From NCBI GenBank assembly GCA_946480825.1, contig CAMLLG010000021.1:1-57983 (forward strand): a stretch of DNA of 57,983 nt. The letters run 5' to 3'. The position numbers and the translations under genes were made by a program. Source of the stretch: an uncultured Lysobacteraceae bacterium. Lineage in GTDB: Bacteria > Pseudomonadota > Gammaproteobacteria > Xanthomonadales > Xanthomonadaceae. Numbering within the stretch: position 1 is the first letter of the stretch; every line of letters starts with the position of its first letter. Shown one piece after another: positions 10,967 to 32,995 of this stretch. Below the pieces are notes generated by a model. It was not told the origin of the DNA, searched no databases, and saw only the letters and a program-made list of their open reading frames with translations.

Positions 10967-11539
10967 ATGAATTTCGATAATCTGGACAACGAGGAGCTGT
11001 TGCGTCTGTCGCTGGAAGCGATCAACGGAGGTCGCGATTCGGAAGCGATCTCGATGCTCAAGCTGATGCTCTCGCGCGAGCCCGGCCATCTCTACGCCAC
11101 CTATCTGCTCGCCGCGCAGCACGCGCAGATCGGTCTGTTCGATCGCGCCGAATCCGGATTCCGCACGGTCGTGGCCCAGTCCCCGGATTTTTCCATCGCC
11201 CGCTTCCAGCTCGGTCAACTGCTGACGATGAAGGGCGCCGCCGACGAAGCGCGCGAGATCCTGTCGCCGCTGTTCGCCGGCAACGATTCCCTGTCCGCTT
11301 ACGCGCGCGGCATGTCGGCGCTCGCCGCCGGCGATGCCGAGACCGGCGTTCGCGAACTCGAGCAGGGCCTCGGCCTCGCGCAGGAAATTCCCGCGTTGAT
11401 GAGCGATATGCAGCGTCTGCGCGACAACCTGCTGCAGAACGCCGCGGTCGAGCCTTCGCCGATCGCCGCGCCCGAAACGTCGCCCGCGCCGGCCTATCTC
11501 GCAGGCTACGGTTACGGCCGTTCCGGCGACGCCGAGTGA
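10967..11539 (+). CDS. TPR-repeat protein at the head of the flagellar-type array
   Basis: A 190-residue, mostly helical protein with tetratricopeptide-like repeats (HLYATYLLAAQHAQIG, SPDFSIARFQLGQLLTMKG) and a Pro/Ala-rich tail. It has no signal peptide or membrane segment. The ATG at 10967 has AGGA 6 bases upstream, while the longer frame to 10640 runs through the leader RNA and terminator. TPR proteins beside type III systems often act as chaperones or scaffolds; a role here is inference from position. Its stop codon overlaps the next start. Confidence 0.8.
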   Translation: MNFDNLDNEELLRLSLEAINGGRDSEAISMLKLMLSREPGHLYATYLLAAQHAQIGLFDRAESGFRTVVAQSPDFSIARFQLGQLLTMKGAADEAREILSPLFAGNDSLSAYARGMSALAAGDAETGVRELEQGLGLAQEIPALMSDMQRLRDNLLQNAAVEPSPIAAPETSPAPAYLAGYGYGRSGDAE

Positions 11540-11922
11540 CGATCGATCGGCTCTCGGCGCTCTCCGCGCAGATCGCCGCGCTGCGTTCGGAGATGTCGCG
11601 CAAGAGCGGCGATGCACGGCGCAAACGCGATGCGGACGATGTCGACAATGCATCGCTTTCGGTGCAGGGCGCGAAACCCGATCCCGACGAGCTGCGCAGA
11701 CAGCTCGCCGAGCTCGTGCGCGGCGTCGATATCGACGATGCCGATGCGCTGGACCACGCGCGTTCGCGCGTCGTCAAGGCGGTGTTGCTGTGGGAATTCG
11801 GCCAGGACCTCCGCGAACACGCGGAGTGGCAACCGATGGTGGAAACGATCGCGGCCTCGCTGACGGCCGACGAGCGTTTTCGTAATGCTTTCAATCGGTT
11901 GATCGTCGATTTGCAGGTTTGA
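11536..11922 (+). CDS. Small helical protein of unknown function
   Basis: A 128-residue soluble protein beginning at GTG 11536, which overlaps the preceding stop (GTGA), so the two are translationally coupled. It has a charged coiled-coil-like N-terminus and a C-terminal helical stretch (VKAVLLWEFGQDLREH, then NAFNRLIVDLQV). I recognise no family. Tight coupling to the TPR gene and to the flagellar-type array suggests an accessory or chaperone partner. Confidence 0.7.
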   Translation: MTIDRLSALSAQIAALRSEMSRKSGDARRKRDADDVDNASLSVQGAKPDPDELRRQLAELVRGVDIDDADALDHARSRVVKAVLLWEFGQDLREHAEWQPMVETIAASLTADERFRNAFNRLIVDLQV

Positions 11923-11940
11923 CGTGAGCAAAGTGTGACG

Positions 11941-11969
11941 TTGACAGCGTTCCGGAAGACCGCTAGCGT
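11941..11969 (+). promoter_or_regulatory. Sigma70-type promoter before the second TPR gene
   Basis: A perfect -35 TTGACA (11941-11946) is followed 17 bases later by a poor -10, TAGCGT (11964-11969). It sits in the 188-base gap before the TPR-fliQ operon and gives that operon a promoter separate from the upstream sigma28-like site. Confidence 0.55.
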
Positions 11970-12053
11970 ATGTCCACGCGATGCGGTTGATGCTTCATCA
12001 GGAGTCGGTCGATACAGGGGATGTTCCTTCGCGTAGGAGCAAAAAGACCTGAC

Positions 12054-12110: not shown

Positions 12111-13259
12111 ATGGCCACGCATCAAGGGCGGGCTGCGCGTTTACGGGAGTTTTTCGCGCAGGATCCACTGAATCAAGACATCGCCTGCGATCTGGCCGAC
12201 GCGCTTTCCGCGTCCGGCGAGATCGAAGAGGCGAAAAAAATCCTGGAATCCTTCACCGATACCGCGACCGCGTCGCCGGGCGTGCGTTTCCGCCTCGCGC
12301 GCTGCCAGCTCGCGACCGGCGCCTACGATCTCGCCGTCGCCGGCTATGCCGCATTGATCGCGGAAGGCCACGACGCCGTCGCCGTGCGTCACGATCTCGC
12401 GTTCGCGCAGTTGTGTCTGCAACAACCGCAGGCGGCGATGGCGACCATCGAATCCGCGCTCGAAACGTTCGGTCCTTCGCCCGAATTGCTGATCCTGAAG
12501 TCGCGCGTCGACGCGATGCTCGGCGATTACGCGCAGGCCGCGGCCGATGCCGACGCCGCGCTCGCGATGCGCCCCGACGACGTGCAGGCGATGGGCGTGA
12601 AAGCGCTGGCGCTGCTGGACGGCGGCGAACTGGAAACCGCGGCGCAGGCCGCGCGCGACGCGCTCGAACGCGATCCGCAGCAGCATGAAGCCCTGCTGGT
12701 CGCATCCACGCTGTGTCTGTGGCAGCAGGATCTCGATCCGGCGCAGACGCTGTTCGAACGCGCGCTGGCGCGTCATCCGAACTCCGGCCGCGCACTGTCC
12801 GGTTACGGTCAGTTGCTGATGTTGCGCAACGATCTGCCGCAGGCGGGCGAGGTGCTCGAACATGCGGTGGTCGCGATGCCCGATCACATCGGCACCTGGC
12901 ACGCGCTGGCATGGAATCAGCTGCTTCGCGGCGATCGCGAAGGCGCGGAAAACAGTTACCGCAAGGCCTACGATGTCGATCGCAATTTCGGCGACACCCA
13001 TGGCGGCCTCGCGCTCGTCGCGGTGCTGCGTGGCGATCTCGACGAGGCCGAACTGTCGGTGAGGCGCGCGTTGCGTCTCGATCCCGACGCAGTGACCGCG
13101 CGCTACGCACAGGCGCTGATCATGGAGGCGCGTGGGGACGCGCAGGGTTCCGAAGCCGCGATCGCAAAACTCCTTCCCGACCACGGCGCGTTCGCCGCGC
13201 TGCCGGTCCGGGAATTCGCACAACGACTGAAGAGCACGCTCACAGCCGGTTCGCGCTGA
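12111..13259 (+). CDS. TPR-repeat protein preceding fliQ
   Basis: A 382-residue soluble protein made almost entirely of tetratricopeptide repeats, for example YRKAYDVDRNFGDTHGGLA and SVRRALRLDPDAVTARYAQ. It has no signal peptide or membrane segment. ATG 12111 has GGAGA about 11 bases upstream. It ends 11 bases before fliQ and so probably leads the operon of export-gate genes. Like the 190-residue TPR protein upstream, it may be a cytoplasmic chaperone, sorting or scaffold component; this is inferred from context only. Confidence 0.82.
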   Translation: MATHQGRAARLREFFAQDPLNQDIACDLADALSASGEIEEAKKILESFTDTATASPGVRFRLARCQLATGAYDLAVAGYAALIAEGHDAVAVRHDLAFAQLCLQQPQAAMATIESALETFGPSPELLILKSRVDAMLGDYAQAAADADAALAMRPDDVQAMGVKALALLDGGELETAAQAARDALERDPQQHEALLVASTLCLWQQDLDPAQTLFERALARHPNSGRALSGYGQLLMLRNDLPQAGEVLEHAVVAMPDHIGTWHALAWNQLLRGDREGAENSYRKAYDVDRNFGDTHGGLALVAVLRGDLDEAELSVRRALRLDPDAVTARYAQALIMEARGDAQGSEAAIAKLLPDHGAFAALPVREFAQRLKSTLTAGSR

Positions 13260-13270: not shown

Positions 13271-13534
13271 ATGGATTCCGATCTCGCCATCCGTCTGCTG
13301 ACGGACATGCTGCTGTCGGCCGCGAAAATGTCGGCCCCGATCCTGCTGGCCACGCTGGTGGTCGGTCTGATCATTTCGATCATCCAGGTTGCGACACAGA
13401 TCCAGGAAATGACCTTGACGTTCGTTCCGAAGCTGATGGTCGTTCTGGTGGTGTGTCTGGGTCTCGGCAGCTGGATGTTGTCGGTCGCCATGGAGTTGTC
13501 CATCCGTTTGTTCGAGCTGGCGGGGACGCTCTGA
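13271..13534 (+). CDS. fliQ: Flagellar-type export gate protein FliQ
   Basis: An 87-residue protein with the two hydrophobic helices of the FliQ/SctS family (ILLATLVVGLIISIIQVATQ, then LMVVLVVCLGLGSWML). It forms the export gate with FliP and FliR in the inner membrane. Length is normal. ATG 13271 follows GGGGG. Two bases separate it from fliR. The canonical neighbour fliP is displaced to the far end of the array at 31472. Confidence 0.93.
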   Translation: MDSDLAIRLLTDMLLSAAKMSAPILLATLVVGLIISIIQVATQIQEMTLTFVPKLMVVLVVCLGLGSWMLSVAMELSIRLFELAGTL

Positions 13535-13536
13535 CC

Positions 13537-14331
13537 GTGGACCGGATCGAAGACATGGCCGCACTGCTCGCACTGGCGTTCCTGCGCTACGTGCCGGCGG
13601 TGGTGCTGCCGGGTTTCTCGCCGCTGCGCTGGGCGCCGGCGCTGGTGCGCATCGTGTTCGCGATGGCCCTGGCGTGGTTGACCGTGCTGGCGATGCCCGA
13701 TGCGCCCGCGTCCGGTGCCGCTTCGTCCGGAATGTTTTCGTTGCGGGCGAGCGGCGCGGCGGGCTGGGTCACGGCGGCGCTCGGCGAACTCGCGATCGGC
13801 ATGGTCTTCGGCCTGGTGGTGATGATTCCGCAGGCGGCGCTGCACACGTCCGGCTGGTTGATCGACATCCAGGCCGGCCTCGGCGCGGCCACGCTGTTCA
13901 ATCCCGGCGGGCAGGGCGATCCGCAGTCGCTGCTCGGCACCGCGCTGATGCTGCTCGGCACGGTGATGTTCTTCACCCTCGACATGCATCTGGAGTTGTA
14001 CCGCGGCCTCGTCGCCAGCACTCAGGTGTTGCCGATCGGCGGGCTGGGCATGCGTCCGAGCGCCGAAGGCTTTTTCGGCCTGATCGGCAGCAGTTTCCTG
14101 CTCGGGCTGATGGTCGCGCTGCCGGTGCTGCTCGGCCTGTTCGCGATCGACGTCGGCGTTGCCTACGCCACGCGTTCGATGCCGCAGGCCAACGTGTTCT
14201 TCCTCGCGCTGCCGTTGAAGGTATTGGCCGCGATCCTGTTGCTGGTGGTGTCGCTGCGCTACGCGCCGGCGCTGATGCTGCGCCTCTACCAGGACGCGTT
14301 TTCGCGCGTCCCCGCGATGCTGGGAGGCTGA
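13537..14331 (+). CDS. fliR: Flagellar-type export gate protein FliR
   Basis: A 264-residue membrane protein of the FliR/SctT family, normal in length, with the expected run of helices and the mid-protein block ASTQVLPIGGLG. GTG 13537 lies directly after the fliQ stop; ATG 13555 is an alternative. It completes the FliP-FliQ-FliR gate and passes straight into flhB. Confidence 0.93.
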   Translation: MDRIEDMAALLALAFLRYVPAVVLPGFSPLRWAPALVRIVFAMALAWLTVLAMPDAPASGAASSGMFSLRASGAAGWVTAALGELAIGMVFGLVVMIPQAALHTSGWLIDIQAGLGAATLFNPGGQGDPQSLLGTALMLLGTVMFFTLDMHLELYRGLVASTQVLPIGGLGMRPSAEGFFGLIGSSFLLGLMVALPVLLGLFAIDVGVAYATRSMPQANVFFLALPLKVLAAILLLVVSLRYAPALMLRLYQDAFSRVPAMLGG

Positions 14332-14333
14332 CC

Positions 14334-15404
14334 GTGTCGCAGGGCGATCAGGACAAGACCGAAGAGCCGACTCCCTTTCGCCTCGAAGAGGCGCGCAAGC
14401 GCGGCGAAGTCGCGAAGAGCATCGAAGTCTCCGGCATCGTGGTGATGATCATCTTCGCCGCCATCGTCGGCCTGACCGGTACGGGCGTGGCGCTGGCGCT
14501 CGCCAATGCGACCCGGCGCATGATCGCGGTCTCGGGCGACGTGAAGTCGCTGGACGGCGCCTTCGTGGGCTGGATGTCGAATACCTATGCGCCGGTCTGG
14601 CAGGCGCTCGCGCCGCTGGTGCTCGGGCTGCTGGTCGCCGCGGTGCTCGGGCATCTGGTGCAGACCGGCCCGATGCTGACCACGCATCCGCTGAAGCCCG
14701 ACTTCAAACGCATGAATCCGATGCAGACCCTCAAGCGCGTGTTCTCGATGCGCACGCTGTGGGAACTCGGCAAGCTCACGGTCAAGTTCGCGCTGCTCGG
14801 CGCGATCTGCTGGCTCATGATCACCCGCGCGGCCGCGCTGGCCGAGTCGGTGGCGATGTCGCTGCCGCAGCGCGCCGGTTCGCTGCTGCTCGGCGCGTTC
14901 GTGAAGGCTTCGGTCTACACGCTGCTGGCGCTCGCGCTGGTCGCCGCGGTGGACATGCTGTTCACGCGTCGCGAGTTCATGAAGAAGATGCGCATGAGCC
15001 GTCGCGAGCTGAAGGACGAGGTCAAGCGCCGCGACGGCGACCCGGCGGTGAAATCCAAGCAGAAGCAGCAGCTGCGCGAATTGCTGAAGAAGACCCGCGC
15101 GCTGTCCAAGGTGCCGTCGGCCGACGTGATCATCACCAATCCCACGCACGTCGCGGTCGCGTTGCGCTACCGGCCCGGCGAGACCCTCGCGCCGGTGATC
15201 CTGGCCAAGGGCGCCGGCGTGCTGAGCGCGCGCATCCGCGCGATCGCGGCGCGCCACCGGGTGCCGATCGTGCGCTCGCCGAAGCTCGCGCGGCTGCTGT
15301 ATCGGGAATGCGAGATCGACGGCATGGTGCCGGCCGATCAATACACGGCGCTCGCGCCGATCTATCGTGAAATCTGGGCGTCGAAGCGGGAGATGGGCGG
15401 ATGA
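14334..15404 (+). CDS. flhB: Export switch protein FlhB
   Basis: A 356-residue protein that starts with the typical EEPTPFRLEEARKRGEVAKS stretch, has four transmembrane helices, and a cytoplasmic domain with the self-cleavage motif NPTH at residues 269-272. The intact motif means the substrate-specificity switch (rod/hook to later substrates) could still operate. GTG 14334 sits 2 bases after the fliR stop, and the stop overlaps the flhA start. Confidence 0.95.
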   Translation: MSQGDQDKTEEPTPFRLEEARKRGEVAKSIEVSGIVVMIIFAAIVGLTGTGVALALANATRRMIAVSGDVKSLDGAFVGWMSNTYAPVWQALAPLVLGLLVAAVLGHLVQTGPMLTTHPLKPDFKRMNPMQTLKRVFSMRTLWELGKLTVKFALLGAICWLMITRAAALAESVAMSLPQRAGSLLLGAFVKASVYTLLALALVAAVDMLFTRREFMKKMRMSRRELKDEVKRRDGDPAVKSKQKQQLRELLKKTRALSKVPSADVIITNPTHVAVALRYRPGETLAPVILAKGAGVLSARIRAIAARHRVPIVRSPKLARLLYRECEIDGMVPADQYTALAPIYREIWASKREMGG

Positions 15405-17467
15405 AGCAGTTGTTCCTGCAATTGTGGACCGGCAAACGCGACATGCTGCTGATCGCGCTGGTCATCGGCGTGCTGGCGGTGCTGTTCGTGCCGATCCCGG
15501 CGCCGCTCCTCGACTTTCTGCTGGTGGCCAACATCAGCATGGCGCTGCTGATCCTGCTGGTGACGTTCTTCACCGAAACGCCGCTGAAGTTCTCCACCTT
15601 CCCGACCATCCTGCTGCTGGTCACGCTGTTCCGGCTGGCGCTGAACGTCTCCGCGACGCGGTTGATCCTGGAAGGCGCGGACGCCGGCCGGGTGATCAAC
15701 GCCATCGGCGAATTCGTGGTCGGCGGAAATTACATCGTCGGCGCGGTGGTCTTCCTGATCCTGGTGGTCGTGCAGTACGTGGTGGTGACCAGCGGCGCGC
15801 AGCGCGTGGCCGAAGTCGCCGCGCGCTTCACCCTCGACAGCATGCCCGGCAAGCAGATGAGCATCGACGCCGACATGAACATGGGGCTGATCGACGAGCA
15901 CGAGGCGCGCCGCCGCCGCGCGCTGATCGAAAAGGAAGCCAATTTCTACGGCGCGATGGACGGCGCGACCAAGTTCGTGAAGGGCGACGCCATCGCCGGC
16001 ATCATCATCATTCTCGTCAACATCGTCGGCGGCCTCGCGATCGGCATCGCCCAGCTCGGCCTGCCGTGGGGCGAAGCGGTGCAGCGTTTCACCCTGCTGA
16101 CGATCGGCGACGGCATCGTCACCCAGATTCCTTCGCTGGTGATCGCGGTCGCGACCGGCGTGATCATCACCCGCGCCGCCGCCGATGCGCAGCTCGGCGC
16201 GGAGATCCCGCGTCAGGTACTGGCGAACCCGAAGGCGCTGATCATCGTCGGCCTCGCGCTGTTCCTGGTGATGCTGCTGCCCGGGTTCCCGAAGGTGCCG
16301 GTGATCGTGGTCCTGTTCGTGCTCGGTGCGCTGGTCTGGATGAGCATGCGCGCGGCGCGCACCGCCGAGCAGACCGAAGACGAGACCGACGGCGAAGCCA
16401 CGCCGGCGCAGCAGAAAGCGGGCGACGAGATCCAGCAGTGGATGCGCATCGAACCGCTGGAAGTGCGCTACGGCGCCGAACTGGCGCCGATGTTCGCCGG
16501 CGAGGACAGCGACTTCCAGCAGCGCGTCGCCACCCTGCGCAAGCAGATCGCCCAGGATCTCGGTTTCCTGATGCCGAAGCTCAGCGCCGCCGCGCGCAGC
16601 GAATTGCCGGCGAACGGTTACGAAATCCATTTCCACGGCAATCGCGTGGGCGGCGGCGAGCTGATGCTCGATCATTTGCTGGCGATCAATCCCGGCGGCA
16701 ACCGGCAGAAGCTGGAAGGCCCGGACACCCGCGACCCCGCCTACGGCCTGCCCGCGCAGTGGATCGCGAAGACGCTGCGACAGACCGCGCGCACCGCCGG
16801 CTACACCATCGTCGATCCCGACACCGTGCTGATGACCCATCTGGGCGAAGTGGTGAAGCGCCAGTCCGCGGATCTGCTGACGCGTGCGAGCGTCGAACGC
16901 ATGCTGCAGCGCGTGCGCGAACAGCACGCCTCGCTGATCGACGAGCTGGTGCCCGGGGTGATGAGCTATTCCGACATCCAGAAAGTGCTGCAGCTGCTGC
17001 TGCGCGAGCAGGTGAGCATCCGCAATCTCGAAGCCATCCTCGAAACCCTGGTCGACGCCGGCAAGACCGTGAAGGGCGCCGACGATCTGGCGGATCGGGT
17101 GCGCGAACGCCTCGGTGCCTCGATCTGCCAGGGCCTGCGCGACAGCAACGGCGACCTGCAGGTGTTGACCCTGGCGCCGGAGTTCGAGCGAGCGTTGCTC
17201 GCCAATCTGCGCCCGGGCGAACAGCGCGCGGCGCCCTTCAGCGAGATGTCGCAGCTGGACGCCTTCATGAAGAACATCACCCGCCAGGTCGAAGCGATGA
17301 TGGGCCGCAACCTGCCGCCGGTGGTGCTGTGCCCGTCGCCGGTGCGCCGTTCGCTGCGCGGCCTGCTGCATCGTTCGATGCCTTACGTGACCGTGATCGG
17401 CATGAACGAAATTCCGACCAATCTCCCGGTGCGTTCGTTTGCCGCCATCCACGCCGCCGCTGCCTGA
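15401..17467 (+). CDS. flhA: Export apparatus protein FlhA
   Basis: A 688-residue protein of full FlhA/SctV length. The N-terminal half is membrane-embedded and contains the family signature RFTLDSMPGKQMSIDAD. The C-terminal half (from about residue 330) is the cytoplasmic ring domain that docks chaperone-substrate complexes. ATG 15401 overlaps the flhB stop (ATGA). No sign of decay is visible, which argues that export is under selection. Confidence 0.95.
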   Translation: MKQLFLQLWTGKRDMLLIALVIGVLAVLFVPIPAPLLDFLLVANISMALLILLVTFFTETPLKFSTFPTILLLVTLFRLALNVSATRLILEGADAGRVINAIGEFVVGGNYIVGAVVFLILVVVQYVVVTSGAQRVAEVAARFTLDSMPGKQMSIDADMNMGLIDEHEARRRRALIEKEANFYGAMDGATKFVKGDAIAGIIIILVNIVGGLAIGIAQLGLPWGEAVQRFTLLTIGDGIVTQIPSLVIAVATGVIITRAAADAQLGAEIPRQVLANPKALIIVGLALFLVMLLPGFPKVPVIVVLFVLGALVWMSMRAARTAEQTEDETDGEATPAQQKAGDEIQQWMRIEPLEVRYGAELAPMFAGEDSDFQQRVATLRKQIAQDLGFLMPKLSAAARSELPANGYEIHFHGNRVGGGELMLDHLLAINPGGNRQKLEGPDTRDPAYGLPAQWIAKTLRQTARTAGYTIVDPDTVLMTHLGEVVKRQSADLLTRASVERMLQRVREQHASLIDELVPGVMSYSDIQKVLQLLLREQVSIRNLEAILETLVDAGKTVKGADDLADRVRERLGASICQGLRDSNGDLQVLTLAPEFERALLANLRPGEQRAAPFSEMSQLDAFMKNITRQVEAMMGRNLPPVVLCPSPVRRSLRGLLHRSMPYVTVIGMNEIPTNLPVRSFAAIHAAAA

Positions 17468-17477
17468 GGATCCGTTC

Positions 17478-18173
17478 ATGACCGATACCCTGCAAGCCAT
17501 CGCCCGCAGTCTCAGCAACGACGTGCAGACGCTGTCGACGATCAGCCACAACGTCGCCAACATGCATACGCCGGGTTACCGCGGCGTGCGCGCGATTCCC
17601 GAGTTCAATCCCGAGGTCGGTGCGGGCATCGGCGCAGGCATGGGCATGTCCACCGCGATCGACCAGCGCGACGGCGTGCTGGCGCAGACCGGCAGCGATC
17701 TCGACATCGCGCTGCGCGGCCCGGGCTTCTTCGTGGTCGAGCGCGACGGCAGGCACCTGCTGTCGCGCGCGGGTGCGTTCCGCACCGATGCCGACGGCCG
17801 TCTGGTCACCGCCAGCGGCGATGTCGTGGTCGGTTATTCCGGCGCGCTGCAGATGCCGACGGGCAAGGTCCGCTTCGAGCGCGACGGTCAGGTCTTCGTC
17901 GCCGATCAGGCGGTCGGACAACTGCAGATCGTCGCCGTCGCCGATGCGTCGCGGCTGCAGCCGGCCGGCGACGGCGCCTACGCCTACGACGGCGATCTGG
18001 TCGAATGGAAGGGCGGGGTGGTCCAGGGCGCGGTCGAACGCGCGAACGTCGATGCCGCCGAAGAGACCGTGCGCCTGATGGAAACGACGCGCCACGCCGA
18101 ATCGGTGCAGCGCGCGATTTCCATCTACGACAAGGCGATGGACACCGGCATCAACCAGATCGGCGGCAACTGA
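17478..18173 (+). CDS. flgF: Flagellar proximal-rod protein FlgF
   Basis: A 231-residue rod protein with the N-terminal rod/hook signature TISHNVANMHTPGYRG and a C-terminal helix (ETVRLMETTRHAESVQRA). It comes before flgG as in canonical clusters and is normal in length for FlgF. GAGGA lies 8 bases before ATG 17478. It would be exported by the type III apparatus to form the rod through the periplasm. Confidence 0.88.
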   Translation: MTDTLQAIARSLSNDVQTLSTISHNVANMHTPGYRGVRAIPEFNPEVGAGIGAGMGMSTAIDQRDGVLAQTGSDLDIALRGPGFFVVERDGRHLLSRAGAFRTDADGRLVTASGDVVVGYSGALQMPTGKVRFERDGQVFVADQAVGQLQIVAVADASRLQPAGDGAYAYDGDLVEWKGGVVQGAVERANVDAAEETVRLMETTRHAESVQRAISIYDKAMDTGINQIGGN

Positions 18174-18319
18174 CGAGGGGAATCGAGCCGCGCGCTGATC
18201 CTCGCATGGCCCGCAAACCGCTTCAGAACACGAAAGCGCTTCATCGAAACGCCAGCTTCATCGACACGACACCCACCGCGACAACTCCGCGATTACGACT
18301 TCCGTACAGGGACACCAGC

Positions 18320-19084: not shown

Positions 19085-19125
19085 TTTCACCACTAGTTCC
19101 GTCACCGACTCACGAACCCGATCGC

Positions 19126-22033: not shown

Positions 22034-22035
22034 CG

Positions 22036-22449: not shown

Positions 22450-22790
22450 TGTCCATCGAAGCGATTTCCGCCACCGGCGTGACCCCGTTCGCGGCCGATG
22501 TCGCCGCCGCCGACCGCGCGTCCGCCGCGCAGTTCTCCGGCGCGCAGCTGTCCGGTCCGCAGGCGACCGGTCTCGACTTCGCGTCGATGATCGGCGATGG
22601 CCTCAGCCGCGTCGACGAAAGTCTGCGCGCGGCCGACGGCAAGATCCGCGGCCTCGCCGCCGGCGAGAACATCCCGCTGCACGACGTGATGATCACGATG
22701 GAACGCGCGCGCATGGATCTGATGCTGGTCGTCGAGGTCCGCAATCGCCTGGTGGAGGCCTACCAGGAACTGACCCGCATGCAGCTCTGA
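22449..22790 (+). CDS. fliE: MS-ring/rod adaptor FliE
   Basis: A 113-residue FliE with the C-terminal family block PLHDVMITMERARMDLMLV followed by VRNRLVEAYQELTRMQ. It joins the MS ring to the rod and is the first exported component. ATG 22449 overlaps the flgC stop (TGATG). The order flgBC-fliE-fliF is canonical. Confidence 0.92.
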   Translation: MSIEAISATGVTPFAADVAAADRASAAQFSGAQLSGPQATGLDFASMIGDGLSRVDESLRAADGKIRGLAAGENIPLHDVMITMERARMDLMLVVEVRNRLVEAYQELTRMQL

Positions 22791-22857
22791 TCTTCCACGC
22801 CGAATCCTCAGCGCCAACGCCCGCCATCTCCAATAGTCCATCTCCAGGGACGCCGAA

Positions 22858-25444: not shown

Positions 25445-26784
25445 ATCGTTTCCGGGACCGTCTCCTCGCCAATCTCCGTCAGCTGCCGGTCGGCCGCCAG
25501 CTCGGACGCATCGTGTCGTACAACGGCCTGGTGATCGAGGCGATCGGCCCGGAAGCGCGGCTCGGCGAACTGTGCGAGATCGAGTCCGAACACGAGCCGG
25601 GCATCCGTTGCATGGCCGAAGTGGTCGGTTTCCGCCAGGAACGCACGCTGTTGATGCCGTACGGCCATCTCGCCGGCATTTCCACCGCCAGCATCATCAA
25701 GGCCACCGGCCGGCCGATGACCGTGCCGGTGGGCGATGCGCTGCTCGGTCGCGTCGTCGATGCTTTCAGCCGTCCGCTCGACGACGAAGGTCCGCTGCGG
25801 CTGGACGACGCCTATCCGCTGTATCGCGAACCGATCAATCCGATGGCGCGCGCGCCGATCGAACAGGTGCTCGAAACCGGCGTGCGCGCGATCGACGGCC
25901 TGCTGACGCTCGGCGTCGGCCAGCGCGTCGGCATCATGGCCGGCAGCGGCGTGGGCAAGAGCACGCTGCTCGGCATGCTCGCGCGCCAGGTGGTGGCCGA
26001 CGTGACCGTGCTCGCGCTGGTCGGCGAACGCGGCCGCGAAGTCGGCGACTTCATCGACAACGCGCTCGGCCCGGAAGGCCTGAAGCGTTCGGTGGTGGTC
26101 GTGGCCACCTCCGACGAGCCCGCGCTGGTGCGCGCGCACGCCGCGCACGCCGCGCACGCGATGGCCGAATACTTCCGCGACCAGGGCAAATCGGTGCTGC
26201 TGATCGTCGACTCGATGACGCGCTTCGCGATGGCGCAGCGCGAGATCGGCCTTGCCATCGGCGAGCCGCCGACGTTCCGCGGCTACACGCCTTCGGTCTT
26301 CAGCAAACTGCCGACCCTGCTCGAACGCTGCGGCCGGCTGCGCAGCGGCGGCGCCATTTCCGGCGTCTACAGCGTGCTGGTGGAAGGCGACGACATGAAC
26401 GAACCGGTCACCGACCACATGCGCGCGATTCTCGACGGACACATCGTGCTCGATCGCGATCTCGCATCGCGCGGGCATCATCCGTCGATCGACGTGCTGC
26501 ACAGCGCCAGCCGCCTCATGAACCATGTCGCCGGCGAGACCGAGCAGGCCATCGCGCGCGACGTGAAGAAACAGATGGCGGTGTATGCGGCGTCGCGCGA
26601 CCTGATCGAGCTCGGCGCGCACCAGCGCGGCGTCAACGCGGCGCTCGATGCCGCCATCGACGTCAAGGCGCCGCTGGACAAGGTGCTGCAGCAGACGCCG
26701 AAGCAATTCTCGGCGCGCGAGGAAACGCTGCGGCAGTTCGCCGCGGCATTGAACGCCACGCCGAAGCCGGGCGGTGCCGCATGA
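25441..26784 (+). CDS. fliI: Flagellar-type export ATPase FliI
   Basis: A 447-residue F1-beta-like ATPase of full length. The Walker A loop GSGVGKST lies at residues 168-175, and LALVGERGREVGDFI and VLLIVDSMTRFAMAQREI (Walker B) follow. Both nucleotide motifs are intact, so the protein is probably active. It energises unfolding and release of substrates from chaperones. GTG 25441 overlaps the fliH stop. Confidence 0.95.
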   Translation: MNRFRDRLLANLRQLPVGRQLGRIVSYNGLVIEAIGPEARLGELCEIESEHEPGIRCMAEVVGFRQERTLLMPYGHLAGISTASIIKATGRPMTVPVGDALLGRVVDAFSRPLDDEGPLRLDDAYPLYREPINPMARAPIEQVLETGVRAIDGLLTLGVGQRVGIMAGSGVGKSTLLGMLARQVVADVTVLALVGERGREVGDFIDNALGPEGLKRSVVVVATSDEPALVRAHAAHAAHAMAEYFRDQGKSVLLIVDSMTRFAMAQREIGLAIGEPPTFRGYTPSVFSKLPTLLERCGRLRSGGAISGVYSVLVEGDDMNEPVTDHMRAILDGHIVLDRDLASRGHHPSIDVLHSASRLMNHVAGETEQAIARDVKKQMAVYAASRDLIELGAHQRGVNAALDAAIDVKAPLDKVLQQTPKQFSAREETLRQFAAALNATPKPGGAA

Positions 26785-27236
26785 GCGCGAAACAGTCGAC
26801 CGCGATCCGCACCCTCGTGCGCTGGCGCGAGTTCCAGGAAGCGCTGGCCGAGCGCGAATGCCAGCAGGCGTCGGCGCGCGTGCTGGAAGCGCAGTCCGCG
26901 GTCGACGAGGCGCAGTCCGTGGCCTCGGCCCTCCAGGCGCGTCGCGACGAACTGGTCGGCGCGCAGGCGCTCGATCTCGCGCTGCTGCAGGCCGTCGACG
27001 AATTCGAGCAGCGCGCCGCCGAGGTCGTGCGCGCGCGCGCCGATGCGCTCGACGAGGCCAGCCGCGTTCGCGACGCGGCGCTGTCGGAACATCTGCAGGC
27101 GCGTGCGCACAGCCGCGTCGCCGGGACCCGCTGCGACCGCGTGGTCCTGCAGGAAAACGATCTCGAAGAAAAACGTCTGTTCGACCGGATGGCTTCGCTC
27201 ATCGCGGTCGGCGCCATGGAGAGCCGTCATGATTGA
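26781..27236 (+). CDS. fliJ: FliJ-like coiled-coil export protein
   Basis: A 151-residue, nearly all-helical coiled-coil protein directly after fliI (ATGA overlap), with the length and charge pattern of FliJ/SctO, the stalk of the ATPase ring. Sequence identity in this family is always weak, so the call rests mainly on position and shape. It overlaps the next gene by 8 bases. Confidence 0.78.
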   Translation: MSAKQSTAIRTLVRWREFQEALAERECQQASARVLEAQSAVDEAQSVASALQARRDELVGAQALDLALLQAVDEFEQRAAEVVRARADALDEASRVRDAALSEHLQARAHSRVAGTRCDRVVLQENDLEEKRLFDRMASLIAVGAMESRHD

Positions 27237-28248
27237 TCGCTTGCATCAAACGCCACCGCCGCTGCCGCCGCGGCCGGCCGCGCAGGAATCGCAGTCCGGC
27301 GTGCCGTCGTTCCTGGAATGGGCGCTGTCGAATCCGGGCCCGGATTCGGGGGCGAACCCGCAGCCCGCTGGCCATCCCGATCCGGATGGGCAAGGCGCCG
27401 GAATCGCGCTGTCCGCGCATGCGATGTCTGCGCATGCGACGTCCGCCGTGCCGGGCGCGATCGATCCCGCGCTGACGCTGCTGCCGCCGAATCTGCCCGG
27501 CGATGCGATGCGCGCCCATCCGACCGTTGTGGATCCGACCTTCGTTGATCCGACGCTGGCCGATCCGCGCATGCCGCTGCCTGTGCCGGGCGTGCCCGCG
27601 CCGCCCGCGTCCGATCCGTCCGCGCTCGTCCCCGGCGATCCGTCCATCGCGGTGTCCGCAGTCGTCGATCCGCAGGATCTCGCGACGCAGACGCTGCAGG
27701 TGCATCTCCGGAAACCGCAGGGCGAACGTGAAGTCGTCTCGTTGCCCTGGCGGCTCGCGGCCGGCGGTCGACTCGATCAGAGCCTGCGGGTTCCCGGCAT
27801 GGTCGCGCCGCCCGGCATGGCGTCGTCGTCGGCGCCCGTTGGCGGCGCGTCGTCGGCGACTCCCGGCATGGCGGTCTTCGATGCGCTCGGTCGCGTGCAG
27901 ACCCCGGGCCTGTCGCACGGTGCGCGCGCGCCCGCCGAAGGCGCGTTGCTGCCCGGCATGATGCGCATCGCGGCGCGCGCGGGCGATGCGTCCGCCGCCG
28001 CGACGCTCGGCGCCGCGTCCGCGCCGGTCGTGTCCGAATGGCTGTCGCGCTGGATGAAGTGGATCGAACGCGACGGCCACGATCCGGTGGTGTTGCTGCG
28101 CGATTACCGCATGGACGGCGACGAGACCCGTCGCGTCGTCGACACCCTGCGCGCATTCGCGCGCGAACACGGCGTGGTGCTCGATCGCGTCGTCTTCAAC
28201 GGCCACGAGTTCTGGCGCAACCGGAACTCCGACAGTACCCGGGAGTAA
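27229..28248 (+). CDS. FliK-position protein (possible hook-length regulator)
   Basis: A 339-residue protein rich in Pro, Ala and Asp through residue 260, with DPT/DPR-style repeats (VVDPTFVDPTLADPRMP). A short folded C-terminal domain of about 80 residues contains VVLLRDYRMDGDETRRVVD and VLDRVVFNGHEFWR. A disordered N-terminus, compact C-terminus, and the place between fliJ and flgD match FliK, the exported ruler that triggers the FlhB switch. The usual FliK C-terminal motifs are not obvious, so the assignment is positional. Confidence 0.55.
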   Translation: MIDRLHQTPPPLPPRPAAQESQSGVPSFLEWALSNPGPDSGANPQPAGHPDPDGQGAGIALSAHAMSAHATSAVPGAIDPALTLLPPNLPGDAMRAHPTVVDPTFVDPTLADPRMPLPVPGVPAPPASDPSALVPGDPSIAVSAVVDPQDLATQTLQVHLRKPQGEREVVSLPWRLAAGGRLDQSLRVPGMVAPPGMASSSAPVGGASSATPGMAVFDALGRVQTPGLSHGARAPAEGALLPGMMRIAARAGDASAAATLGAASAPVVSEWLSRWMKWIERDGHDPVVLLRDYRMDGDETRRVVDTLRAFAREHGVVLDRVVFNGHEFWRNRNSDSTRE

Positions 28249-28252
28249 ACGC

Positions 28253-28666
28253 ATGCCAGTCGATGCCATCGGCGGTGTCCTCAATGCCCAGGACACCAAC
28301 ACCACCCAGAACAACAGCATCAATCAGGAGGACTTCATCCGTCTGTTCCTGACCCAGCTGCAGTTCCAGGACCCGCTGGAACCCGTGGACAACCGCGAGT
28401 TCCTCGCCCAGCTCGCGCAGTTCACCTCGCTGGAGCAATCGCGCCAGACCAGCCAGAACACCACCGATCTGCTGTCGATGAACGCGACCACGCAGGCGGT
28501 GGGACTGCTCAATCGCCAGGTCGAAGTCAGCGGCCTGGCGACCGCTTTCACCGGCACGGTCACCGCCGTGCGCTTCACCTCCGACGGCGCACAGCTCACC
28601 GTGGCCAACGGCACCGATGTGCGGACGGCGATCCGTCTGTCCCAAGTCACGCTCGTCAGACCCTGA
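28253..28666 (+). CDS. flgD: Hook-cap protein FlgD (minimal)
   Basis: A 137-residue FlgD with the family core FLTQLQFQDPLEPVDNREF and LAQLAQFTSLEQ. Typical FlgD is over 200 residues; the Ig-like and Tudor-like C-terminal domains are mostly missing here, leaving a minimal cap. GGGAG precedes ATG 28253. It is followed 19 bases later by flgE. Confidence 0.88.
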   Translation: MPVDAIGGVLNAQDTNTTQNNSINQEDFIRLFLTQLQFQDPLEPVDNREFLAQLAQFTSLEQSRQTSQNTTDLLSMNATTQAVGLLNRQVEVSGLATAFTGTVTAVRFTSDGAQLTVANGTDVRTAIRLSQVTLVRP

Positions 28667-28685
28667 ACACCTCGAGGAGACACTC

Positions 28686-29858
28686 ATGTTCCAAGCCCTT
28701 TTCAACAGCCTTTCCGGTCTCTTCAGTTTTTCGAGGAGCCTGAACACGGTCAGCAACAACGTCGCCAACATGAACACGCCCGGTTTCCGCGGCAGCGATT
28801 CGTTCTTCTCGAACATCGGCGGCGGTCGCGGCACCCGGATCTCGGGCGAAGGCCTGCGCACGCAGTCGGGCGACATCCGCCAGACCGGCAACACCACCGA
28901 TCTCGCGATCGAAGGCGACGGCTATTTCATCCTCAGCGATCTGGCGGGCAACCTGCATTATTCGCGCGCCGGCCAGTTCCGTTTCGATCAGGACGGGTTC
29001 CTCGTCGATTCGGTCAACGGCTACCGCGTGATGGCCTACGACCAGACCGGCAATCTCGCGCCGATCGATTTCGACAACTATCGTTCGATCCCGGCCGTGG
29101 CCACCACCGACGTGCGCATCAGCGGCAACATCGCCGCGGTCGCCGCCGGCAGCCCGGTGCAGACCAGCACCGTCAACAACATCCGCGTGTTCGACGCGCA
29201 GGGCGGCTCGCACACGCTCACCGCCACCTTCACCAGCAACTCCGCGGTCACCGCCGGCAGCTTCCTGGTGCGGATCACCAACGAGGCCGGCACCCAGATC
29301 GGCACCGGCGAAGTGCGTTTCGATGCGGGCGGCACCCTGGTCGCCGGCTTCAACACCGTCGCCATCGCGCTTCCGGTCGCCGGCGGCACCCAGGCGATCA
29401 CCATGAACTTCGGCACGCCCGGCGCGCTCGACGGCATGACCTCGCTCAGCGGCCTGGCCAGCAACCTGACCTCGCGCGTGGTCGACGGCCACGGTGTGCT
29501 CGGCGCCACCGAGATCAAGTTCAACGAGCGCGGCATCCTCGAACTGATCTACTCGGCTTCGGAACGCCGCGAAGGCCCGCAGATCGCGCTGGCGACCTTC
29601 CCGAACGAAGCGTCGCTCAGCCTCGATGGCGGCCGCCTGATTTCCGGCGCCACCATTTCCGACGTCAACTACGGCCGTCCGACCCAGAGCGGTTTCGGCC
29701 GCATCGCCGGCGGCAGTCTGGAAATGTCGAACGTCGATCTGACCCAGGAGTTCGCGGACATGATCATCATCCAGCGCGGCTACCAGGCCAGCTCGCGCGT
29801 GATGAGCGTCAGCAACGAAATGCTCGAACAGCTCTACAACAGCACCCGGGGCGGCTGA
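28686..29858 (+). CDS. flgE: Hook protein FlgE
   Basis: A 390-residue hook protein of normal length. The N-terminal signature SRSLNTVSNNVANMNTPGF and the C-terminal QEFADMIIIQRGYQASSRV are both present, with a Thr/Val-rich middle domain. A strong GAGGAGA lies before ATG 28686. It shows the machine can build an extracellular hook, even though no flagellin or junction protein is seen. Its stop overlaps the FliM-like start. Confidence 0.92.
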   Translation: MFQALFNSLSGLFSFSRSLNTVSNNVANMNTPGFRGSDSFFSNIGGGRGTRISGEGLRTQSGDIRQTGNTTDLAIEGDGYFILSDLAGNLHYSRAGQFRFDQDGFLVDSVNGYRVMAYDQTGNLAPIDFDNYRSIPAVATTDVRISGNIAAVAAGSPVQTSTVNNIRVFDAQGGSHTLTATFTSNSAVTAGSFLVRITNEAGTQIGTGEVRFDAGGTLVAGFNTVAIALPVAGGTQAITMNFGTPGALDGMTSLSGLASNLTSRVVDGHGVLGATEIKFNERGILELIYSASERREGPQIALATFPNEASLSLDGGRLISGATISDVNYGRPTQSGFGRIAGGSLEMSNVDLTQEFADMIIIQRGYQASSRVMSVSNEMLEQLYNSTRGG

Positions 29859-30637
29859 TGAGCGTCACGCCCTTCCGCTGGCAGAGCGCTTCGCGCATGG
29901 AGGCCCTGCGCGCGCTGGCGCTCGAACGCACCGAGCGCTGGATCGGGCAGTGGGCCGCGGCCGGTCAGCGGCCGACGGTCGAGGTCGAACTGCTGACCGC
30001 GCAGCGCTCCGAGATCGCCGCCGCCGACGTGCGCTGGTACGCGCTCGGCGACGCTGGCGGCACGCTGAGCCTGCGCGTCGCCGGTGCGACCTTCGAGCAT
30101 CTCGGCTGCAGGCTGGCGGGGCTCGCCGTCGCCGACAGTTCCGGCTTGGCGGCGGGCATCGGCCAACGCGCGCTGACCGACCTCGCTCGCGGATGCTTCA
30201 CGGCGAACGCACCCGCCGCGTTGACCGCGGTCGCGGGTGTGCCCGCCAACGCCGACATCGGTGCGCGCTTCGGCGCCATCGGCGTGCAGGTCTCGGTCGG
30301 CACGATCCGCTTCGAATTGCATTTCGACTCGGCCCTGTGCGCGACGCTGGTGCCGGTGCGGATGCCTGCGGGCGAGACCCTGGTCGCGCGTCGCGACGCG
30401 GTGAAGACGATCGACGCCACCTTCGACGCGGTGCTCGATCTGGGCACCACGCCGCTCGCCGAATCGCTGAGCTTCCAGCCCGGCGAAATCATCAAGACCG
30501 CCATTCCGCTCGGCGCGGGCCTGCGTCTCGTGTCCGGCGACGGCGGCGAGATCCTCAGCGGCACCCTGGTGGCGGAAGACGGCCACCGCGCGCTCAAAGT
30601 CGTGAAATCCCATCTCCAGAGGAGTCCGCAGAAATGA
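29858..30637 (+). CDS. FliM/SctQ-like C-ring protein
   Basis: A 259-residue protein whose C-terminus is a SpoA-type domain (AVLDLGTTPLAESLSF, then PGEIIKTAIPLGAGLRL). It sits just before fliN. Classical FliM is about 330 residues and begins with a CheY-binding EIDxLL motif and a GGxG-containing middle domain. Neither is visible here, and the protein looks more like the SctQ of injectisomes. The missing CheY site fits a machine that does not switch rotation. ATG 29858 overlaps the flgE stop. Confidence 0.7.
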   Translation: MSVTPFRWQSASRMEALRALALERTERWIGQWAAAGQRPTVEVELLTAQRSEIAAADVRWYALGDAGGTLSLRVAGATFEHLGCRLAGLAVADSSGLAAGIGQRALTDLARGCFTANAPAALTAVAGVPANADIGARFGAIGVQVSVGTIRFELHFDSALCATLVPVRMPAGETLVARRDAVKTIDATFDAVLDLGTTPLAESLSFQPGEIIKTAIPLGAGLRLVSGDGGEILSGTLVAEDGHRALKVVKSHLQRSPQK

Positions 30638-30936
30638 AAAGCAATCTCGCGAAAGATCCGGCGTTCGACGCCGATGTCGACACCGCTTCGCGCACCGCCG
30701 CGCTCAGTCGCGACATCGGCCTGATCGGCCATGTACAGGTGGCGATGACGGCGCAGGTCGGCACCGTGACGATGTCGGTCGAGCGCCTGTTCTCGCTCGC
30801 CGCCGGCGACGTGGTGAAGATGAACGAACTGCTCGAAGCCCCGCTGACGCTGATGCTCGACGGCAAGCCCGTGGCGCGCGGCGAACTGCTGGCGGTCGAC
30901 GATCACTTCGGCGTCCGCATCATCGAAGTGGCCTGA
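30634..30936 (+). CDS. fliN: C-ring protein FliN
   Basis: A 100-residue protein that is essentially one SpoA domain (VQVAMTAQVGTVTMSVERL, VVKMNELLEAPLTLMLDGK and a C-terminal FGVRIIEV). It forms the base of the sorting platform or C-ring and binds FliH. ATG 30634 overlaps the previous stop. The length is normal for short FliN proteins. Confidence 0.9.
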   Translation: MKSNLAKDPAFDADVDTASRTAALSRDIGLIGHVQVAMTAQVGTVTMSVERLFSLAAGDVVKMNELLEAPLTLMLDGKPVARGELLAVDDHFGVRIIEVA

Positions 30937-31518
30937 ATGCAGGCGACCGCCTCCGCGCCGGCCGCCTCCGCGCAGGCCACTCCCGAGACAGCGGCGACGA
31001 CGCCATCGGCAGCGGCCGCGACCGAGCAGGCCGCACCGGTGCAGGCAGCGCCAGCGCAGGCAACAGAGGTGCCGGCGAAGACGCGCGCCGAGACCATGCA
31101 GCAGCCGATTCCGTACCGCGAGGACGGTGGCGGTCTCGCCGCCGATGCCGGCGGCGCGGTGTTCGCCGCGATCCTGCTGCTGTCGCTGATGGTGGTCGCG
31201 CTGCAGTTCGCGCGCAGGCGCGGCCTGCTCGATCGCTGGATCGTGGCCACGCCCGCACGCACCGCCGGACGTCCGCAGATGCAGGTCGAACAGGCGCTGC
31301 GCGTCGGCGCGAAGACGATGGTCTATCGCATCCGCGACGGCGAACAGCGCTACCTGCTGGTCGAATCGACCGCGCAGACCACGCTGGTTCCGGTCGCGCC
31401 GCTTCCGACCACGCTTGTCCCGCCGCCTCAGCTCGACACGCCCCACCTTTCCGCCGAAGAGATCGACAACGATGTTGCAGCGACACCCGACGACCATGCG
31501 CGACACGACGACCGCTGA
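30937..31518 (+). CDS. fliO: Export apparatus assembly protein FliO
   Basis: A 193-residue protein with a low-complexity Ala/Pro/Thr N-terminus, one transmembrane helix (FAAILLLSLMVVALQFARR), and a small cytoplasmic FliO domain (VEQALRVGAKTMVYRIRDG). It assists assembly of the FliP ring. ATG 30937 directly follows the fliN stop. It overlaps the fliP start by about 47 bases. Confidence 0.82.
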   Translation: MQATASAPAASAQATPETAATTPSAAAATEQAAPVQAAPAQATEVPAKTRAETMQQPIPYREDGGGLAADAGGAVFAAILLLSLMVVALQFARRRGLLDRWIVATPARTAGRPQMQVEQALRVGAKTMVYRIRDGEQRYLLVESTAQTTLVPVAPLPTTLVPPPQLDTPHLSAEEIDNDVAATPDDHARHDDR

Positions 31519-32293
31519 CGCTTCGCCCGCCGCACGGCCCGCGAGCTCCGCGCGCACCGCGCTGCGCCGCATCGGCATGATCGCGATGGGCTGCCTGCTC
31601 GGCGTCGCCGGCGCGGCCATCGCCGCCGATCCGGTCGATACCGTCGGCAATGTTCTCCGGCAGGACTATTCGCCGGTGCTGCGCAATTTCGTCGCGCTGT
31701 CGCTGCTGTCGCTGATTCCGGTGATGTTGATCGGGATGACCGCGTTCACCCGGATCGTGATCGTGCTGTCGCTGCTGCGCCATGCGCTCGGCCTGCCGCA
31801 GACGCCGCCGAACAGCGTGATCGTCACCCTGTCGATCTGTCTGACCTATTTCACGATGGCGCCGGTGATCGACGAGGTGAACAAGGTCGCCATCGCCCCC
31901 TACATGGCCGAACAGATCGACACCCGCGAAGCGCTGGATCGCGGCGCGGTGCCGATGCGCCAGTTCATGATCCGGCAGACCCGCGAGTCGGATCTGCGCG
32001 CGGTGCTGGAGATGGCGCGCGCGCCCGCGCCGAAGACGATGGACGACATCGCCATGCGTCATCTCGCGCCGGCCTTCCTGCTCAGCGAGCTGAAGACCGC
32101 GTTCCAGATCGGGTTCGTGATCTTCCTGCCGTTCCTGATGATCGATCTTGTCGTCGGCGCGGTGCTGATGTCGCTCGGCATGATCATGGTGCCTCCGGCG
32201 ACGATCAGCCTGCCGCTGAAGATCCTGCTGTTCGTGCTGATCGACGGATGGGTCCTGGTGTCCAGGGCGCTGTTGAGCAGTTACTGGACCTGA
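31472..32293 (+). CDS. fliP: Flagellar-type export gate protein FliP
   Basis: A 273-residue FliP with a cleavable signal (MIAMGCLLGVAGAAIAAD), the early helix LVALS-type region, FTRIVIVLSLLRHALGLPQ, and the C-terminal LLFVLIDGWVLVSRALL. ATG 31472 has a GA-rich site upstream; ATG 31496 (265 residues) is possible. FliP is the last structural gene, while fliQ and fliR are at the front of the array, so the usual fliPQR run is split by about 17 kb. Confidence 0.93.
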   Translation: MLQRHPTTMRDTTTADASPAARPASSARTALRRIGMIAMGCLLGVAGAAIAADPVDTVGNVLRQDYSPVLRNFVALSLLSLIPVMLIGMTAFTRIVIVLSLLRHALGLPQTPPNSVIVTLSICLTYFTMAPVIDEVNKVAIAPYMAEQIDTREALDRGAVPMRQFMIRQTRESDLRAVLEMARAPAPKTMDDIAMRHLAPAFLLSELKTAFQIGFVIFLPFLMIDLVVGAVLMSLGMIMVPPATISLPLKILLFVLIDGWVLVSRALLSSYWT

Positions 32294-32314
32294 GAACGGG
32301 CTCCGGGACGCAGC

Positions 32315-32995
32315 ATGTCGCAGGGGATCGAGCCCGTCGCCGAAACGGAGCTCTGGCAGCAGTACCGCCGGAGCGCCGACATCGCGGTGCGCGATCGTCT
32401 GTTCCATCTGTACATGCCGTGGGCGGCGGCGGTCGGCCGCAACGTCTATCGCCGCGTTTCCGTCTACAGCCTCGACTGCAACGATTTCGTCCAGAACGCC
32501 GAACTCGGCATGCTCGACGCGATGACCCGCTTCGACCCGGAGCGCGGGGTCGATTTCCGCGCCTTCGCCAAGCCCCGGGTGCGCGGCGCCGTCTTCAACG
32601 GCCTGCGCGCGCTGCTGCGCGAGCGCGGCGTCTCCACCGACGATGCGCGATACGCCGAACGGCTGTCGCATCTGCATCGCGGCGACGACGACCCTTTCGA
32701 TGGCGTCGTCGACGCCATCATCGGGCTGGGCATCGGCTACCTGCTCGACCACGCCGCCGGCGAGCGCGGCGACGACGCCTACGCCTACGTCAAGCGCAGC
32801 CAGATCGATTCGCGGCTGTCGGCCGCGGTCAATCGCCTGCCCGAGCGCCTGCGCCGGATCGTCGTCGCCCATTACTTCGAGCACATCCCGTTCACCGCGA
32901 TCGCACAGGACATGCAGTTGACGAAGGGGCGCGTGTCGCAATTGCATCACGAGGCGTTGACGCGTCTGCGCCATGCGTTGCGCGAACTGCGCTGA
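32315..32995 (+). CDS. fliA: FliA-type (sigma28) RNA polymerase sigma factor
   Basis: A 226-residue sigma factor. Region 2 is DCNDFVQNAELGMLDAMTR, FDPERGVDFRAFAKPRVRG. Region 4 is LPERLRRIVVAHYFEHIPF followed by the helix-turn-helix around LTKGRVSQLHHEA. GGGA precedes ATG 32315. It closes the flagellar-type array 21 bases after fliP. No FlgM anti-sigma is seen in the window. Candidate targets are the two TAAA-N15 promoters at 10812 and 33081. Confidence 0.9.
   Translation: MSQGIEPVAETELWQQYRRSADIAVRDRLFHLYMPWAAAVGRNVYRRVSVYSLDCNDFVQNAELGMLDAMTRFDPERGVDFRAFAKPRVRGAVFNGLRALLRERGVSTDDARYAERLSHLHRGDDDPFDGVVDAIIGLGIGYLLDHAAGERGDDAYAYVKRSQIDSRLSAAVNRLPERLRRIVVAHYFEHIPFTAIAQDMQLTKGRVSQLHHEALTRLRHALRELR

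Follow-up and report, generated by a model that had tools for sequence, protein, structure and literature searches.

The 57,983-base stretch analysed here (the window; GC 66%), from contig CAMLLG010000021.1 of an uncultured Lysobacteraceae bacterium, encodes a compact array of flagellar-type genes that is directly followed by the gene for a giant RHS protein. We consider it probable that this array belongs to a distinct gammaproteobacterial lineage of flagellar type III secretion systems (T3SS) in which filament, stator and torque domain are lacking and which serves the export of giant polymorphic toxins of the RHS type. Judging from the sequences, the array most likely encodes a functional secretion system without a role in motility, and its most likely cargo is the giant RHS toxin family. 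The gene content, the lineage of the export protein FlhA, the purifying selection, the absence of the torque domain FliG_C, the co-occurrence and linkage of giant and array, the promoter motif, and the giant C-termini with their adjacent small open reading frame (ORF) were all computed directly. A first-pass annotation, made from the window alone, had proposed selection for secretion without rotation, which is now favoured by the absence of FliG_C and MotB and by the ratios of nonsynonymous to synonymous substitution rates (dN/dS), secretion itself being the probable function that these imply. It had left the cargo open, missing the candidate giant gene directly downstream, the product of which would be exported.

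Gene content, spread and lineage of the array

The array (13271–32995), identified by Pfam and NCBIfam scans of the window ORFs, lies on the plus strand throughout, from FliQ to a sigma factor, and the majority of its genes overlap or almost touch (Table 1). In agreement with the first-pass annotation, the export gate, ATPase, MS ring, rod, P and L rings and hook are all encoded in it, the NPTH motif is present in the translation of FlhB, and no flagellin, cap or stator family turned up among the array genes scanned. The co-location of FlgB, FlgC, FlgE, FlgF, FlgG, FlgH and FlgI with FlhA, FlhB, FliP, FliQ and FliR identifies the system as a flagellar-type T3SS. The reduction of the parts needed for rotation, also claimed earlier, is borne out by a FliG of 154 aa without FliG_C and a FliM of 259 aa with FliMN_C only. 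The boundaries of the unit had to be redrawn: the flagellar block does extend to 32995, but the segment 10964–13259 consists of three non-flagellar genes (TPR, small helical, TPR), and the unit continues past 32995 with the gene for the 6,544-aa RHS protein and an immunity-like gene that overlaps it.

A FliP scan of genome contigs yielded 67 loci, and tblastn with the window genes recovered the same array, as far as the contigs reach, in 30 of these (L001–L028, L031, L063), whereas the remaining 37 show a different gene order or too little sequence. The genes recovered, although not every one at each locus, are FlgI, FlgB, FlgC, FliE, FliF, FliH, FliI, FlgD, FlgE, FliN, FliP and the sigma factor. 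Among the record titles are Pseudomonas, Pseudoalteromonas, Rheinheimera, Catenovulum, Kangiella, Solimonas, Nevskia, Teredinibacter and Fluviicoccus, as well as an Acinetobacter metagenome-assembled genome (MAG) and Lysobacter-type MAGs, so that the array is represented in Pseudomonas, Alteromonadales, Kangiella, Moraxellaceae, Nevskiaceae and Xanthomonadaceae. Two records outside these groups look mis-binned: the Rhizobium MAG (L007) is assigned to the same family as G002, and the Verrucomicrobia MAG (L020) has an FlhA that groups with Nevskia.

In an unrooted maximum likelihood tree of 61 FlhA proteins, without injectisomes, the 34 array FlhA, including that of the window, lie on one side of a branch with 100/100 support. 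The 27 non-array FlhA comprise 23 flagellar copies, two of the lateral type (G006, G016) that group with those, and two long-branched Teredinibacter proteins that stand apart; the latter (G025:C14, G025:C1) are extra copies besides the flagellar and array FlhA of that genome. Chromosome 2 of Catenovulum sediminis carries two arrays (L015, L021) with nearly identical FlhA and a giant gene near each. Glycosyltransferase-like genes, recognised by eye, are located beside the arrays L006, L013, L021 and L027 and could perhaps modify the hook or the cargo.

The dN/dS analysis proposed in the first-pass annotation was performed for the window and L001, leaving out the misaligned FliO, and revealed purifying selection, with values of 0.02–0.23 in 14 of the 16 usable comparisons (FlgD 0.02, FlgE 0.05, FliN 0.06, sigma factor 0.09, FliI 0.10, mini-FliG 0.11; first 240 residues of the giant, 0.14). 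FliJ (0.39) and FliK (0.49) are looser. Such low values argue against decay of the array. The reading as a relic of a Xanthomonas-type flagellum was rejected in view of the FlhA tree, the purifying selection and the presence of the array beside true flagella; the array is no relic peculiar to Lysobacter.

Genome-wide absences were counted in the genomes of relatives, namely the 28 behind the array loci and 16 from two samples described below, 44 altogether. Flagellin_N has no match in 17 of these 44 array genomes and is present in the other 27; the genome-wide search for flagellin suggested earlier, run here in relatives, thus came out both ways. A second locus with flagellin and stators, which the first-pass annotation had named as evidence against its own reading, does exist in the 27 genomes as far as flagellin is concerned; because the array occupies a locus apart from it in these genomes and has an FlhA of its own, the secretion reading is not refuted. 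Among the 28 genomes, Flagellin_N and FliD_N each occur in 21, and FliD_N has no match in any of the seven flagellin-less genomes tested. FliG_C was detected at 23 places in the same 21 genomes as flagellin (two places each in G006 and G016), all of them on contigs other than the one with the array FlhA. The seven flagellin-less genomes, which encode one FlhA each, compared to two or more in the other 21, have no FliG_C. Of the 17 array genomes without flagellin, 16 have no MotB_plug and one (G293) has a marginal match (24.3 bits, with a cut-off of 24), whereas the domain is found in all six flagellin-bearing array genomes tested. Each single absence is weak evidence because several genomes are drafts. 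At the position of FliG, all 27 examinable loci contain an open frame of 90–215 codons, the identity of which as FliG is mostly positional; the 105 relatives of mini-FliG listed from public data are 116–166 aa long, and none of the listed names is FliG.

Giant RHS proteins and their link to the array

The giant protein encoded next to the array in the window combines RHS and Ig-like repeats with a PT-HINT domain, a weak match to LysM and a C-terminus of no known family, and the open frames of its family span 3,000–8,000 residues. With the RHS and HINT parts, an exchangeable C-terminus and an adjacent putative immunity gene, its anatomy is, by predicted domains, of the polymorphic toxin type. 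The C-termini differ between the complete giants, and in two of ten other giants they match enzyme folds, a Scabin-like ADP-ribosyltransferase and a DNA/RNA non-specific endonuclease; NCBIfam, applied to the C-terminus of the window giant and nine others, returned a single ADP-ribosyltransferase, below the cut-off. An ORF of 90–250 codons starts near the stop of the giant in the window and in all 11 other complete giants (14 closed frames minus the doubtful L117, L118 and L130), whereas the same criterion gave 101 of 218 for the stops of other long ORFs in array loci and 355 of 8,000 for points chosen at random.

Signals for type III export are located at the N-terminus and lack a defined structure. 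In the structure prediction for the giant, residues 1–64 have a predicted local distance difference test score (pLDDT) below 50, as if disordered, with a low-confidence short helix at 13–18, and confident RHS-type strands start past residue 85. The first 30 residues include no lysine or arginine, unlike a Sec signal. The predicted N-terminus agrees with the proposed export by the array.

The giants could also be cargo of a different kind, namely adhesins anchored at the cell surface or a structure that replaces the filament on top of the hook, in which case killing would be secondary or absent. Great length, RHS and Ig-like repeats and the LysM-like stretch would suit such a role, and the FlgE hook is among the most constrained genes (dN/dS 0.05). 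Nevertheless, we regard this possibility as unlikely given the HINT domain, the differing C-termini, with toxin-like enzyme folds in two of the ten scanned, and the small ORF at the stop of the giant.

The association of the putative toxin-like cargo with the array is apparent from co-occurrence. An alignment of the first ~240 residues of nine giants, that of the window and eight located next to other arrays, shows a common signature, and a profile of this N-terminus was found in 24 of the 28 array genomes, or in 17 of 21 as the independent figure, the other seven genomes having supplied seeds. In an even sample of 369 genomes from the class, in which the array-type FlgE scored at least 379 bits and the other listed FlgE at most 215, the signature (at least 140 bits) is present in all four array-FlgE genomes, one of which (G002) is the sample centre and a seed, and in none of the 365 others. 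In a sample of 297 Xanthomonadaceae genomes, it is found in 16 of 16 array genomes as opposed to one of 281 others (G592), with a Fisher p of 1e-25, or 9e-22 without G001, G002 and G007, both uncorrected for kinship. The array-type FlgE scores are intermediate in four of the 16 (G565, G597, G610, G673; 293–304 bits, compared to 486–561 bits in the other 12), and not counting these four as array genomes changes the result to 12 of 12 vs. 5 of 285. In G459, the match begins at profile position 37. Overall, the giant N-terminus is represented in 40 of the 44 array genomes; the giant is located 6–22 kb from the array FlhA in the 14 same-contig cases tabulated, and 4–53 kb from the array FlgE in nine genomes of the family sample.

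In Kangiella (L010, G010:C3), the array, the genome of which has no flagellin, lies between two giants with open frames of 6,401 and 5,208 aa. Small genomes that lack FlhA (L101, L103, L104, L105, L107) also encode large proteins whose N-terminal signature is related.

Two other explanations would detach the giants from the array. Under the first, the array is the relic of a lost flagellum, the gate proteins of which now serve twitching as in Lysobacter enzymogenes, and the giant gene lies next to it through chance or shared regulation. The flhA, flhB, fliI and fliR mutants of L. enzymogenes OH11 indeed lose twitching (PMC7277350), in agreement with the link to twitching mentioned in the first-pass annotation, and 4 of the 28 array genomes do not have the giant N-terminus. 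However, the array FlhA form a single lineage found side by side with true flagella (27 of the 44 array genomes have flagellin), the array is under purifying selection, it retains rings, rod and hook that twitching would not need, and the giant is present in all 16 array genomes of the family sample vs. 1 of 281 others, so that we regard this explanation as quite unlikely. Under the second, the giants exit by another route or through the true flagellum, and their co-occurrence with the array stems from one regulon or life style. Such a route would accommodate the diverged N-terminal relatives in FlhA-less genomes, the G592 giant without an array FlgE, and the 12 of 24 giant-bearing array genomes, many of them drafts, in which the giant is not on the contig of the array FlhA. 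Yet the giant N-terminus has no Sec-like signal, no further export genes turned up beside the giant among the window ORFs scanned, and flagellin is absent in 12 of the 16 array genomes of the family sample, so that no ordinary flagellum serves these; we consider this explanation very unlikely.

Several observations weigh against export of the giants by the array as we propose it. The N-terminal profile has no match in G003, G017 and G019 and gives weak RHS matches only in G021, that is, 4 of the 28 genomes. The 2.2 Mb genome G592 encodes a giant with no array FlgE at the threshold used. Diverged N-terminal relatives (64–104 bits, beginning at profile position 4 or 5) are found in six class-sample genomes without the array FlgE, five of which (G120, G310, G032, G203, G336) have no FlhA and one (G128) a partial FlhA; the N-terminal domain is therefore not exclusive to the array, and another delivery route or function may exist. 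Eight more class-sample genomes, with 50–76 bits, miss at least the first 15 profile positions and were not counted as carrying the signature. The C-terminal part of the window giant and the immunity-like protein match no known family, and a chain of 695 kDa is very large for type III export. The small ORF is a real but moderate sign because 46% of the other long-ORF stops show it as well. Where the host is flagellated, the giants could instead leave through the true flagellum, and the loss of twitching in some L. enzymogenes gate mutants (PMC7277350) is not explained by toxin export.

A common promoter motif and a putative export pathway

Expectation-maximisation on the stretches upstream of 28 giants retrieved a motif consisting of CCCTAAACTTTT, ~10 loose bases and cGGAATaA, with a score of 236 compared to 63–79 in six shuffled sets. 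A simple pattern common to giant genes, TAAAC-N15-GGnAT (spacing about 15 nt), occurs in 10 of 29 giant upstream regions; over 100 shuffled sets, the mean is 0.2 and the highest count 2, and 28 of the 5,850 stretches used as background contain the pattern. The copy before the window giant, which ends 57 nt ahead of the ATG, was found by this pattern and was not selected in the learning step; another promoter-like site precedes TPRa (Table 1). At other array loci, no strong motif site was found before the array itself. The Escherichia coli FliA consensus, searched before 22 giants, was matched or exceeded in at most 5 of 200 shuffles for three of them, the rest being nearer chance (114 of 200 for the window giant). 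Given that the array encodes a FliA-type sigma factor, the simplest reading is that the giants, TPRa-hyp2-TPRb and perhaps the array behind them form one putative regulon under this factor.

We infer export, sigma control, chaperone roles and toxicity from these features and propose the following pathway. The sigma factor of the array would read the promoters of the giants and of TPRa-hyp2, and the N-terminal ~60 residues of the giant would be the export signal. FlhA, FlhB and FliI would then thread the unfolded giant through the rod, rings and hook, after which the RHS part would fold outside the cell and the HINT domain would cut. The released C-terminal toxin would act on neighbouring cells, with the producer protected by the downstream protein, whereas TPRa, TPRb and hyp2 might be chaperones or an anti-sigma switch. 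A relationship of hyp2 to FlgM, based on an eye reading of its N-terminus, was rejected, family and fold searches having returned no match.

The window also includes genes on either side of the array and the giant, among them a vanadium-chloroperoxidase-like gene just upstream of the TPR genes and traces of mobile elements past the giant (Table 1).

Table 1. Features of the window, with positions counted from its first base
Feature	Position	Strand	Remarks
LacI-type regulator	71–1582
Glycoside hydrolase family 65	1778–4843		fused to haloacid dehalogenase-like domain
MFS transporter	7289–8755
Vanadium-chloroperoxidase-like protein	8878–10611	+	VCPO second domain, DUF6851
Promoter-like site before TPRa	10809–10838	+	best learned-motif score of the window, either strand
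TPRa	10964–11539	+	short TPR protein
hyp2	11536–11922	+	small, predicted helical; chaperone or anti-sigma, a guess
TPRb	12111–13259	+	TPR protein; matches are generic TPR, one a weak LcrH/SycD-type similarity
FliQ	13271–13534	+
FliR	13534–14331	+	frame open from 13453, start uncertain
FlhB	14334–15404	+
FlhA	15401–17467	+
FlgF	17478–18173	+
FlgG	18320–19084	+
FlgA	19126–19824	+
FlgH	19817–20458	+	L ring
FlgI	20440–21603	+	P ring
FlgB-like rod protein	21662–22033	+	weak match, NCBIfam E 0.0025
FlgC	22036–22449	+
FliE	22446–22790	+
FliF	22858–24252	+	MS ring
Mini-FliG	24249–24713	+	154 aa; weak FliG_N (E 0.0003) and FliG_M (E 0.03); no FliG_C
FliH	24713–25444	+
FliI	25441–26784	+	ATPase
FliJ	26781–27236	+	named by position; no family match
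FliK	27229–28248	+	named by position; no family match
FlgD	28253–28666	+	short
FlgE	28686–29858	+	hook
FliM	29858–30637	+	short, 259 aa; FliMN_C only, E 0.005
FliN	30637–30936	+
FliO	30937–31518	+	weak match, NCBIfam E 0.0009
FliP	31475–32293	+	frame open from 31415, start uncertain
FliA/WhiG-family sigma factor	32315–32995	+	TIGR02479, E 6e-26, below family cut-off
Promoter-like site before giant gene	33080–33105	+	1 match vs. 0.03 expected in shuffles
Giant protein, candidate cargo	33165–52799	+	6,544 aa, 695 kDa; RHS/Ig-like/LysM-like/HINT
Toxin-like C-terminal part of giant	52305–52799	+	after HINT; GC 0.43 in last 300 nt
Immunity-like gene	52792–53298	+	168 aa, GC 0.44; overlaps stop of giant
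Y1 transposase	53602–54585	−	weak match; mobile-element trace
Orphan ORF	54767–55174	+	low GC
rve integrase-core ORF	55693–56565	−	mobile-element trace
tRNA	56651–56732	−

Relation to known systems and implications

The swimming flagellum of gammaproteobacteria shares with the array the export gate, ATPase, MS ring, rod, P and L rings, hook and FliA-type sigma factor; the array differs in the lack of flagellin, cap, stator and FliG_C, in its short FlgD and FliM, and in its separate FlhA lineage. Secretion rather than motility as the proposed role is shared with injectisome-type T3SS, but rod, hook, FlgH and FlgI are kept in the array, and no secretin, needle or translocator turned up among the array genes scanned. 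We lean towards a second independent conversion of a flagellum into a secretion machine, parallel to the injectisome, in which rod, rings and hook were kept and which acquired its own sigma factor and promoter and giant RHS toxins with a common N-terminal export signature. In many gammaproteobacteria, this machine would be present side by side with a true flagellum. The myxobacterial killing system that combines Tad with an atypical type III-like apparatus resembles the present case in the atypical type III machine and the bacterial predator as host; unlike that system, the window yielded no Tad genes and keeps the full rod-ring-hook set.

For L. enzymogenes, there are earlier reports of toxins exported through a flagellar system. 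In OH11, the flagellin of Xanthomonas oryzae is exported in an flhB- and fliI-dependent manner (PMC7277350), and flagellar export genes are said to be needed for antifungal toxin secretion, with FlgD secreted (PMC9927559). OH11 is a non-flagellated relative in which, as in the window array, flagellar export genes occur without filament and stator, and for which toxin secretion is reported. Its genes, however, are said not to be in an operon, and fliC, fliD, flgK, flgL, flgB, fliE, fliG, fliM, motA and motB are described as lost in 15 Lysobacter species on the basis of BLAST with X. oryzae genes (PMC9927559). Part of this reported loss may reflect the sensitivity of BLAST because the window does encode FliE, FlgB, mini-FliG and FliM, mostly diverged, in a compact array that also includes a sigma factor and to which a giant RHS gene is linked. 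The family of the window array reaches far beyond Lysobacter.

With the RHS polymorphic toxins (PMC3482391), the giants share RHS repeats, HINT, a changing C-terminus and a small downstream gene, and are distinguished by frames of 3,000–8,000 residues, an N-terminal signature of their own and the tie to a flagellar array. The routes named for polymorphic toxins in that survey are T2, T3, T5, T6, T7, PVC and TcdB/TcaC; the nearest earlier hint is an RNase gene in flagellar operons of Firmicutes, for which flagellar delivery was posed as a question (PMC3482391). The Rhs genes of Lysobacter capsici AZ78 are reported to be signal-regulated (PMC8416617). No giant RHS cargo linked to a flagellar array was recognised in the literature searched, in which Lysobacter export is partly covered, and the wide array family, the giant cargo and the shared promoter were not found in print.

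Should the proposed export hold, the giants would be absent from the medium of an flhA mutant, the N-terminal signal of ~60 residues would be portable, and the array sigma factor would have a small regulon. Orphan giant RHS proteins, a large class, would gain a delivery route, and genes that have been read as flagellar relics in non-motile bacteria would be a working weapon. The array would then clearly exemplify how an organelle for motility can become a secretion system while keeping most of its shaft, which would bear on the origin of the injectisome.

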